Below are positions 5,841 to 29,630 of a stretch of DNA of 64,000 nt, in pieces; the stretch's first letter is position 1, and each line of letters begins with the position of its first letter. Origin of the DNA: Nocardioides mangrovicus (GTDB taxonomy: Bacteria > Actinomycetota > Actinomycetes > Propionibacteriales > Nocardioidaceae). A program made the position numbers and the translations under genes. Below the pieces are notes generated by a model, which saw only the letters and a list, made by a program, of their open reading frames with translations, ran no database searches and was not told the origin of the DNA. The DNA is taken from assembly GCF_003674065.1 (NCBI RefSeq), contig NZ_RDBE01000010.1:289578-353577 (forward strand), given 5' to 3'.

Positions 5841-5913
5841 GCCGAGCCGTCGCACACCCGTAGGTGCTCCCGCGCGAAGCGCGCTTCCGCCTATGGGTAT
5901 GCGACGGCTCGGC
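5841..5913. repeat. Long hairpin, 24-base arms
   Basis: Arms 5841-5864 and 5890-5913 match at 22 of 24 positions when one is reverse-complemented. The 25-base loop contains its own palindrome, gcgcgaagcgcgc. It lies 29 bases after the cysN stop and could end that transcript, although there is no U-tract. Confidence 0.8.
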
Positions 5914-16776: not shown

Positions 16777-16812
16777 AGCAGGACGGGTGGCAGGACGGGT
16801 AGCAGGACGGGT
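16777..16812. repeat. 12-base tandem repeat, three copies
   Basis: AGCAGGACGGGT at 16777-16788, a one-base variant at 16789-16800, and the exact unit again at 16801-16812. It lies between mshD and the terminator hairpin that follows at 16812. Confidence 0.85.
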
Positions 16813-16870
16813 AGTCCGTGACGATCGGACCCCGAAAGGCCCCGGAAGAGGGTCCGTTCGTCACGGACTA
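16812..16870. terminator. Bidirectional hairpin between mshD and the convergent esterase gene
   Basis: Arms 16812-16832 and 16850-16870 are complementary at 20 of 21 positions, with a 17-base loop. The right arm ends in the esterase stop codon. There is no clear U-tract. The arm sequence TAGTCCGTGACGA is similar to the hairpins at 27362 and 28544. Confidence 0.7.
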
Positions 16871-26571: not shown

Positions 26572-27351
26572 ATGGCCAAGAGCATCGACGTCTCTGACCT
26601 GAACATCTACTACGGCGACTTCCTCGCCGTGGAGGGCGTCAACATGACCATCCCGGCGCGGTCGGTGACCGCGCTGATCGGCCCGTCGGGCTGCGGCAAG
26701 TCGACCTTCCTGCGTTCGCTCAACCGGATGCACGAGGTGATCCCCGGCGCCCGCGTCGAGGGCAAGGTCGTCGTCGACGGCCAGTCCATGTACGACCCGG
26801 CCGTCGACCCGGTCGAGGTGCGCCGCCAGATCGGCATGGTCTTCCAGCGTCCGAACCCCTTCCCGACGATGTCGATCCGCGACAACGTGCTGGCCGGGCT
26901 GCGGCTGAACAACAAGAAGCTGAAGAAGGCCGACGCCGACGACGTCGTCGAGCGGTCGCTGCAGGGCGCCAACCTGTGGAACGAGGTCAAGGACCGGCTG
27001 GGCAAGCCCGGCATGGGCCTCTCCGGCGGCCAGCAGCAGCGGCTGTGCATCGCCCGCGCGATCGCCGTCCAGCCCCAGGTGCTGCTGATGGACGAGCCCT
27101 GCTCGGCCCTCGACCCGATCTCGACCTCGGCCGTGGAGGACCTCATCCACGAGCTGAAGACCGACTACACGATCGTCATCGTCACCCACAACATGCAGCA
27201 GGCGGCCCGCGTCTCGGAGGACACCGCCTTCTTCAACCTCGCCGGCGCCGGCAAGCCCGGCCGGCTGGTCGAGATGAACCCCACCAAGAAGATCTTCTCC
27301 GTCCCCGACCAGGAGGCCACCGAGGCCTACATCTCGGGGCGGTTCGGGTAG
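26572..27351 (+). CDS. pstB: Phosphate ABC transporter ATPase
   Basis: A 259-residue ABC ATPase with Walker [10 protein letters not shown] (37-45), Q-loop [11 protein letters not shown] specific to PstB, signature [14 protein letters not shown], Walker [14 protein letters not shown] and H-loop VTHNMQQA. It energises phosphate import by PstCA. An RBS (GGAAAGGAAG) precedes ATG 26572. A 30-base-arm hairpin begins 11 bases after its stop. Confidence 0.97.
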
Positions 27352-27361
27352 GTCGCCCGCT

Positions 27362-27434
27362 GGCGGGATAGTCAGAGACGAAATGGCTGTCGGATCGGTG
27401 ATCTGACAGCCATTTCGTCTCTGACTATCCCGCC
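27362..27434. repeat. 73-base hairpin repeat, left copy
   Basis: Perfect 30-base arms (27362-27391 and 27405-27434) around a 13-base loop. The right copy at 28544-28615 is its near-identical reverse complement, differing mainly in five bases beside the loop. It lies between the pstB stop and the nuclease-fold gene. Confidence 0.95.
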
Positions 27435-27439
27435 TGTGG

Positions 27440-28534
27440 ATGACCGAAGCGAGGGCGGCCAGTTCTGGGCAGGATGCGCCCGTGCTGGAGCCCGCGTACC
27501 GACCGACCCGGAGCGACGTCGTCGCCCCGGTCATGGTCGACCCCTCGGGGCAGCGCGGGCCGACGCGCGCTCGAGCCCGCGGGCCGCAGTGGCGTCGCAC
27601 CAGCCATGGTTTCTACGTCCCGGCGGACGTCGACGGCGACGCTCCGCTCCAGCGCATCGCCGAGGCAAGTGTCGCGATCCCCGAGATCGGCGGGCTGACC
27701 GGCTGGGCGGCCCTTCGCTGGCTCGGTGCCACGTGGTTCGACGGGACGGCCGATGGCGGCCGACGCCAGCGGCCGGTCACTCTGGCGACCTGCTACATGG
27801 ACGTGCGCACCCAACCGGGCATCGAGATCTGCCAGGAACGTCTCGCCCCCACCGAGCTGGTGATCCATGAGGGCATCCCGGTGACCGAACCTGCTCGGTC
27901 GGTCTGCTTCGAGGCCCGCTACGCCAGGTCGAAGCTGGACGCTTTGGTCACCATCGAGATGGCGGCGTTCCACGATCTCGTGAGTGCCGCGGAGTACGCC
28001 GACTTCACACTCGAGCGCCGCGGCTGGACCGGAGTCCCGCAAGCGCGCGAGCTCATCGACCTCATCGACGAGAACAGCTGGTCACCGATGGAGACGCGCC
28101 TGCGCATGCGGTGGTGCCTGCACCTGGGGCTTCCTCCACCGCTGGCCAACCGGCCGTTGTTCGACCTGCAGGGCCGGCACATCGGAACCCCGGACCTCTT
28201 CGACCCGTCCCGGGCGCTGGCGGTCGAGTACGACAGCCATCTGCACCTCACCACATCGCGACGCGCCGTGGACCGCGACCGCGAGACACTCTTCCGCGAC
28301 CATGGCGTCGAGGTGGCCACCATCTTGACCGCCGACGGCGCCCACAGCGGGGCTCTGGCCAAGCGTCTGGGAGAGGCCGTCGACCGGGCCGAGCGGACCC
28401 TGCCCTCCCGCACCGCCCGCTGGACCCTCCAGCAACCCGCCTGGTGGCTGCCGTCGCAGACCGTCGAACAGCGCCGTGCTCTCGCCGCCCGCGGCCTGTT
28501 CCGCTACCTGCCCAGTCACCGACATGCCGCGTAA
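27440..28534 (+). CDS. AbiEi/DUF559-like protein with nuclease-fold C-terminus
   Basis: A 364-residue protein lying precisely between two inverted hairpin repeats. The N-terminal half (WRRTSHGFYVPADV, then GGLTGWAALRWLGA) resembles the winged-helix part of AbiEi-type proteins. The C-terminal part (SPMETRLRMRWCL, GTPDLFDPSRALAVEYDS, then RDRETLFRDHGVEVATI) follows the DUF559/Vsr-like endonuclease layout, with Asp and Glu-Tyr-Asp in place of the usual VDLxxP...VEYDG motif. Such genes are abundant, scattered and often orphan in actinomycetes. ATG 27440 is five bases after the hairpin. Codon use is a little less GC-biased than in pst. Nuclease activity is unproven. Confidence 0.7.
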   Translation: MTEARAASSGQDAPVLEPAYRPTRSDVVAPVMVDPSGQRGPTRARARGPQWRRTSHGFYVPADVDGDAPLQRIAEASVAIPEIGGLTGWAALRWLGATWFDGTADGGRRQRPVTLATCYMDVRTQPGIEICQERLAPTELVIHEGIPVTEPARSVCFEARYARSKLDALVTIEMAAFHDLVSAAEYADFTLERRGWTGVPQARELIDLIDENSWSPMETRLRMRWCLHLGLPPPLANRPLFDLQGRHIGTPDLFDPSRALAVEYDSHLHLTTSRRAVDRDRETLFRDHGVEVATILTADGAHSGALAKRLGEAVDRAERTLPSRTARWTLQQPAWWLPSQTVEQRRALAARGLFRYLPSHRHAA

Positions 28535-28543
28535 CCCCGCGGT

Positions 28544-28615
28544 GGCGGGATAGTCAGAGACGAAATGGTCGGCAGATCACCGATCCGACAGCCATTTCGT
28601 CTCTGACTATCCCGC
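28544..28615. repeat. 72-base hairpin repeat, right copy
   Basis: Perfect 24-base arms (28545-28568 and 28592-28615). The whole unit is the reverse complement of the left copy at 27362-27434 apart from a five-base patch and one missing end base, so the pair makes long terminal inverted repeats 1.25 kb apart. It ends 10 bases before the pit stop codon. Confidence 0.95.
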
Positions 28616-28625
28616 TACGCCGGGC

Positions 28626-29630
28626 CTACGGCAGCTGGAGCACGTACCTCAAGACGGCATAGACGGCGGCGGCGGCAAGTCCGGCGGCGGGGAAGGTGAG
28701 GATCCAGCCGCCGACGATGGTGCCGGCCATGCCCCAGCGGACGGCGGAGAGGCGCTTGGTGGCCCCGGCGCCCATGATGGCCGAGGTGATGGTGTGGGTG
28801 GTCGAGACCGGGGCGTGGGCGAGCAGGGCCATGCCGTAGAGGACGGCGGCGCCGGTGATCTCGGCCGAGAAGCCGCGGGCGGGGTCGAGGTGGATGATCC
28901 GGCGGCCCAGGGTCCGCATGATGCGCCAGCCGCCAGAGTAGGTGCCCAGCGAGATCGCGCCGGCGGCGCTGATGACGATCCACAGCGGCAGGTCGGTCTG
29001 CTGCGGGGAGTAGTAGCCGGCGGTGACGACGGCCAGGAAGATCACGCCCATCGTCTTCTGGGCGTCCTGCAGGCCGTGGCCCAGCGCCAGGGCGGACGCG
29101 GAGACGGTCTGCAGCAGCCGGAACCCGCGTTGCACCCGGTGCGGGTTGCGCCGCCGGAAGATCCACATGATCGCCAGCATCACCACGAACGCCGCCGCGA
29201 AGCCGATCAGCGGGGAGAGCACCATCGGGATGAGGACCTTGTCGATGATCGTCGACCAGTGGATCTCGGTGCCCGAGGCCAGCGCCGCGCCGACCAGGCC
29301 GCCGATCAGCGCGTGGGAGGACGAGGAGGGCAGGCCGTAGTACCAGGTCACCAGGTTCCAGGCGATGGCGCCGAGCAGGCCGCCCAGCACGATCGAGAGG
29401 CCGTGGTTGCCGCCCGGCGGCGCGATCACGTCCTTGACGGTGTTGGCGACCTCCTGGCCCAGCAGGGCGCCGACGAAGTTCATCACCGCCGCCAGCCCGA
29501 GCGCGATCCGCGGGGTGAGCGCGCGGGTCGAGACCGAGGTGGCGATCGCGTTGGCGGCGTCGTGGAAACCGTTGGTGTAGTCGAAGGCGAGGGCGACGAC
29601 CACCACCGCGACCACGATCGCGAGATCCAC
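28626..29630 (-). CDS. pit: Low-affinity inorganic phosphate transporter, PiT family
   Basis: A 334-residue PiT permease with two homologous halves: [25 protein letters not shown] at the N-terminus and [12 protein letters not shown] in the middle, followed by [16 protein letters not shown] near the C-terminus; [14 protein letters not shown] is also typical. It imports metal-phosphate by proton symport. GTG 29630 is five bases after the stop of the DUF47 gene, as in the common pit accessory pair. It converges on the nuclease-fold gene across the right hairpin. Confidence 0.94.

Follow-up and report, generated by a model that had tools for sequence, protein, structure and literature searches.

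Gene X of Nocardioides mangrovicus and the palindromes that frame it belong together: the gene is constantly paired with palindromes, each gene has its own cognate type, the palindromes have dispersed into sites that are empty in relatives, and they keep a fixed geometry. We infer that X binds, cuts and spreads its sites. The explanation that we favour, and consider probable, is that X is a sequence-specific endonuclease which, kept between two of its targets, has spread further cognate palindromes and keeps them intact.

X lies on the forward strand at 27440..28534 of the window (the whole stretch of 64,000 nucleotides that was analysed) and encodes 364 amino acids, with a weak AbiEi-like match in the N-terminal region and a C-terminal Vsr/EDxHD-like nuclease domain. 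Its start codon is uncertain; the ATG at 27440 lies 5 nt past the left palindrome. The left neighbour is pstB (26572..27351, forward strand) and the right neighbour is a pit-like phosphate transporter gene (28626..29630, reverse strand, 5' end approximate), and both adjacencies are kept in relatives. As the initial annotation had described, X is the sole gene between two framing repeats (27363-27434 and 28544-28615), which are 96% reverse-complementary across 72 nt, with the mismatches confined to one short patch. Each repeat folds on itself, the left one with a stem score of 32 and a 3-nt loop, the right one with a score of 24 and an imperfect 23-nt loop, and neither is assigned to a strand. 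The left palindrome contains a 59-bp bipartite core, TAGTC...GACTA, at 27369-27427, made of half-sites at 27369-27386 (+) and 27410-27427 (-) around a 23-nt spacer (27387-27409). Likewise, the right core (28551-28609) consists of half-sites at 28551-28568 (+) and 28592-28609 (-) with a spacer of 23 nt. The half-site GGGATAGTCAGAGACGAAATGG occurs 4 times in the window, versus 0 expected from shuffles.

The nuclease domain of X covers residues 196-332 (28025..28435, forward strand). Four residues in it, E218 (28091-28093), D252 (28193-28195), H269 (28244-28246) and D278 (28271-28273), are kept in essentially all intact X homologues, and residue 263 (E in X) is variable, being Q, M, L or D in homologues. 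Judged by residue order, the E-D-x-H-D arrangement appears to fit the active-site pattern of Vsr/EDxHD enzymes; we take E-D-x-H-D to be the pattern that gives the EDxHD family its name. Vsr repairs T:G mismatches. A structure model of full-length X has a pLDDT of 87, and a model of the C-terminal domain alone one of 90.5. The domain model matches the EDxHD homing endonuclease I-Bth0305I (PDB 3r3p; Foldseek probability 0.95, TMt 0.69) and Vsr (PDB 1cw0; probability 0.94), with E-values that are weak (0.05-0.2) despite these probabilities. Among viral predicted structures, VSR, DUF559 and homing endonucleases match the domain with probability 1.00, the viral VSR at E 1.3e-4. The models thus support a Vsr-like core fold for the C-terminal domain, and they back the Vsr-like nuclease layout that had been read from the sequence. 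They make X a predicted Vsr/EDxHD-type endonuclease.

The AbiEi/DUF559-like label first given to X fared unevenly: its nuclease part stood, and its AbiEi part did not go beyond a short match, in which PADLOC AbiEi profiles hit X weakly (E 1e-4, ~65 aa). Searches of Pfam, NCBIfam and PHROGs gave no significant match to this X; some of its relatives match DUF559 and REase_MTES_1575 (Pfam) weakly. An AbiE toxin-antitoxin system was rejected, as X stands alone between pstB and pit and has beside it no gene for a partner toxin or AbiEii nucleotidyltransferase. Pairwise dN/dS among X orthologues is ~0.3-0.5 with dS near 1, and X is under constraint yet fast-evolving.

A collection-wide scan, made by protein only, found 79 X homologue loci in Nocardioides, Marmoricola and relatives. 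The gene occupies the pstB/pit position at 37 of the 79, and the remaining 42 were not recognised as pstB/pit; this common position indicates that X is an old resident and not a recent insertion. X was found at the pstB-pit position in six congeners and in one genome from a different genus; none of these seven loci lacks a flanking palindrome, nearly all have one on both sides, and the sequence is private to each. We surveyed loci with at least 300 nt of flank on each side, accepting palindromes that scored at least 13. Among 75 loci, palindromes were found on both sides at 51 and on one side at 17, and none was detectable at 7. Their density is 2.71/kb less than 300 nt from X, 0.03/kb at more than 600 nt and 0.014 within the gene itself, so that palindromes are ~90-fold denser beside X than elsewhere. 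The similarity of arms is 0.80 within a locus versus 0.22 between loci (maximum of 2000 permutations, 0.306), and the similarity of palindromes tracks the identity of the proteins (Mantel r 0.49; permutation maximum 0.16). These data show that the palindromes co-diverge with the X protein. Six loci of more distant homologues, outside the family but within the phylum, have private pairs (L066, L067, L070, L211, L212 and L230), and many others have none. In one genus of another family of the class (g24; L207-L210), genomes hold up to ~10 distant homologues each, mostly with no detectable flanking palindromes.

The initial annotation had proposed a genome search for the repeat, and this search found it dispersed: the 4.1-Mb genome holds 14 copies of the X-type palindrome, 12 of them away from X, and the best BLAST match beyond these 14 copies is at chance level. 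A search with the half-site TAGTCMGAGACGANATGG, allowing up to 2 mismatches, returned exactly 28 matches, all of them perfect and all in 14 inverted pairs with a spacer of 23 nt (24 once). The genome contains no X-type half-sites with 1 or 2 mismatches and no single half-sites, a result that is independent of the motif's having been derived from the same copies. The 28 arms show zero substitutions at the fixed core positions; their spacers have diverged. By the gene context obtained with a simple codon-usage gene caller, 10 of the 12 dispersed copies are intergenic (4 between convergent, 5 between co-directional and 1 between divergent genes) and 2 lie inside reading frames. Both intragenic copies are translated in the same frame (...IVRDEMA...QPSRLGL...), and by our own reading the interrupted genes appear to be an xdhC-like and a VWA/CoxE-like gene, unrelated to each other. 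Adjacent genes sometimes terminate at a TAG within a palindrome arm.

We searched the joined flanks of the 12 dispersed copies across the genus, and six sites were aligned with relatives. At all six, the palindrome is missing in the relatives. No target-site duplication is visible at these six sites, where the relatives are ~70-85% identical and the junctions cannot be placed exactly. One relative (G015) has palindromes of other families at two of the six sites, in xdhC (L171, G015:C172) and at the L040 site (L182, G015:C22), and these shared positions suggest insertion hot spots. Another sequence (L181, G001:C2:661150-661950) has, where the L040 palindrome sits, a 121-nt insert with TTTCGAGGCTCGCTGCGCTCGCACCTCAACCACC that resembles another repeat family.

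The main rival explanation takes X to be a site-specific DNA-binding protein or nuclease that is useful to the host, as a regulator, a chromosome organiser or a defence or repair factor, and the dispersed palindromes to be functional binding sites of X under host selection, their spread not being driven by X. Frozen arms with drifting spacers do resemble purifying selection, and most dispersed copies are intergenic. Likewise, X is vertically kept at pstB-pit, and a search for it in plasmid (72,556) and phage (50,697) records gave no match. However, the dispersed sites are species-specific, are empty in relatives and in two cases interrupt reading frames, a pattern that one would not expect of conserved regulatory sites, and gene and site specificity both shift quickly between species. 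We consider host selection an unlikely account of the whole, though one to be taken seriously.

A selfish cassette, in which X and its two ends move together and the solo palindromes are scars left by deletion of X, seems to us quite improbable. The homologue loci not recognised as pstB/pit are in its favour, as they imply that X changes place over time, and recombination between palindromic ends could remove X, with a solo site left behind. Yet the genome has one X of this type against 12 solo sites, and no remnants of X were found beside any of them. The ends also turn over while the locus stays fixed: among pstB-pit orthologues the similarity of palindromes is 0.27 between species and 0.79 within a locus. 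Moreover, their orientation is random. The pair is inverted at 19 scorable homologue loci, direct at 19 and undecided at 11, so inverted orientation is not characteristic of X loci and the palindromes do not qualify as the terminal inverted repeats that a cassette would have. The small cassette with hairpin ends that the initial annotation had offered as one reading is thus at odds with a gene whose pstB-pit position is shared by many species, with random orientation and with the dispersal of the palindrome only; its other reading, the capture of a gene between copies of such a repeat, overlooks the fact that every gene comes with a cognate palindrome type of its own. An IS element, a composite transposon and a MITE were also considered and rejected, since orientation is random, only the palindrome disperses and no duplication is visible at the six sites, where resolution is limited.

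Every palindrome family that we tested is also scattered through its own genome. The N. silvaticus-type palindrome occupies 16 places in the N. silvaticus genome; genomes whose X has a similar type hold it at several places, and most of those with another type have few copies or none. Paralogues within one genome bear different palindromes: X2, a paralogue in the present genome that is 40% identical to X, is framed by a different palindrome with ~14 dispersed relatives. In the 24 genomes of the genus that were compared, TAGTC-N44-54-GACTA matches are more numerous the closer the best match to X (Spearman 0.79, p 5e-6); the count is a crude one, which presumes that sites end in TAGTC and takes in a few chance matches that are not palindromic. 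A reversed-pattern control of this census is of little use, being also palindromic and of different base composition, and the rank correlation was used instead. Two families may also be neighbours, as where a palindrome of another family lies ~27 nt from an X-type palindrome (L259, G000:C19:192026-192084). A strong 73-nt inverted repeat at 5841-5913 of the window (GCCGAGCCGTCGCACACCCGTAGG...) possibly represents a further dispersed family.

One family has no recognised X partner, and it gives some weight to the idea that another enzyme mobilises the palindromes and that X, a passenger, either tolerates them or profits from them. This third family (TAGTCCGTGACG...) has 6 sites in the genome; a 59-bp member, not assigned to a strand, lies in the window at 16812..16870 (TAGTCCGTGACGAWCGGACC), and no cognate X was identified for it in this genome. 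Against this idea, the partnerless family has decayed and the X family has not (3 of 12 versus 0 of 28 half-sites; Fisher p 0.02 in a small sample), as would be predicted from an X that maintains the palindromes of its own family. In six genomes, furthermore, the only two copies of the palindrome within ~3 kb of each other are the pair, ~1.2 kb apart, that frames X. The Y1 transposase (PF01797), which was detected in E. coli and other controls, is absent from 24 of 24 genomes of the genus, and so is a RAYT. We give a separate mobilising enzyme little credence.

Palindromes of different sequence share their dimensions. The outer TAG-to-CTA span is 59 bp in 64 of the 88 scored palindromes and 57-60 bp in 84 of them. 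The N. silvaticus family shows 3 substitutions in 32 arms of 21 nt, around a spacer that is constantly 17 nt long and 49% alike. The X2 family has a fixed outer arm and a variable inner one, and the spacers of these two families are 40-49% alike. The arms are symmetric, and each includes the TAG within the palindrome. The two arms of one copy differ at 0-5 positions, indicating that pairing is not the conserved property. On sequence grounds, the fixed span and the frozen arms look more like the binding site of a symmetric protein than like an RNA hairpin. That the palindromes are ordinary transcription terminators, alike by chance, is scarcely credible: all are strong inverted repeats and 4 of the 12 dispersed copies lie between convergent genes, but copies stand both upstream and downstream of X and twice inside reading frames, the arms are free to mispair, the span stays at ~59 bp whatever the sequence, and the palindrome type follows the X gene. 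Rfam gave no match. The initial annotation had foreseen that its proposal would fall if the repeat turned out to be a common terminator unconnected with the nuclease gene; the repeat is indeed dispersed, but the link is real and general.

We return to X as an endonuclease that spreads and maintains its own sites. Its target would be its own cognate 59-bp bipartite palindrome, with inverted arms of ~18-21 nt at a fixed spacing. The most likely step is that X nicks or cuts at or near the palindrome, after which host repair would copy the palindrome sequence into the break. Further copies would then be small non-autonomous elements, spread by X elsewhere in the chromosome. Such an action would be like that of a RAYT/REPIN pair, carried out by an unrelated hydrolytic nuclease.

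The closest known kind of system is indeed the RAYT (TnpA-REP) with its REP/REPIN sequences, the 'REPtron', of which E. coli yafM is an example (PMC8266576, PMC8049555). In both, the gene of the enzyme is flanked by palindromes, many cognate solo copies are dispersed and specificity is cognate; likewise, X is a vertically inherited, single-copy-like gene that is not on plasmids, as its pstB-pit synteny and the plasmid search indicate. The two differ in that X has a Vsr/EDxHD-type fold, unrelated to the HUH/Y1 transposase, and in that its site is a symmetric 59-bp bipartite one lacking the unpaired GTAG tag that REPs carry at one end. The X-type arms in this genome are, moreover, undecayed, and families number ~3-20 copies versus hundreds. 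A hydrolytic nuclease implies a chemistry different from that of the REPtron, and hence a system that is new in enzyme and in site. The X system functions like a REPtron but is outside that family; it would be a new variant only, if all partnerships of an enzyme with dispersed palindromes are counted as one kind. Our search of the open-access literature turned up no previous report of a Vsr/DUF559-type gene that has cognate palindromes.

Outside the groups that bear RAYTs, we know of no dedicated enzyme for dispersed bacterial palindromes, and to our knowledge the sequences of CGTC-tagged REPs and of Rickettsia palindromic elements are unrelated to the palindromes described here. CGTC-tagged REPs, reported as repeats that have no dedicated transposase (PMC3733652), and Rickettsia palindromic elements, which insert in frame inside genes like two of the copies here (PMC10969869), are dispersed palindromes without a RAYT, as in the present case. 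Unlike both, for which no dedicated enzyme is known, the families here are paired with a gene. The C-terminal fold of X and its E-D-x-H-D order are shared with Vsr/EDxHD enzymes (I-Bth0305I, 3r3p; Vsr, 1cw0/1vsr), DUF559 and REase_MTES_1575. Unlike Vsr/EDxHD enzymes, X stands alone as a chromosomal gene and is tied to palindromes, and its N-terminal half is different; the name EDxHD has been used for an intron-borne nuclease domain, and the known EDxHD endonucleases serve introns (PMC12350094). With AbiE, a type IV toxin-antitoxin system, X shares the short weak AbiEi match, but unlike AbiE its C-terminal half is a nuclease domain.

The different signal at the X gene of each relative suggests a partnership of a nuclease with small spreading DNA elements in actinobacteria. 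We lean, if only slightly, towards the view that actinobacteria carry a second, independently evolved REPtron, in which a Vsr/EDxHD-type endonuclease recognises, maintains and disperses 59-bp palindromes, and in which gene and site co-evolve fast, with a private sequence in nearly every species and paralogue. A gene family whose best annotation so far is DUF559/AbiEi-like thereby gains a specific DNA partner, which makes a long-standing question testable. In the genomes of actinobacteria, the X system accounts for a class of insertions that stay in frame and of repeats specific to a strain, and its hundreds of natural gene-site pairs would allow the recognition code to be read and would yield orthogonal site-specific nucleases.
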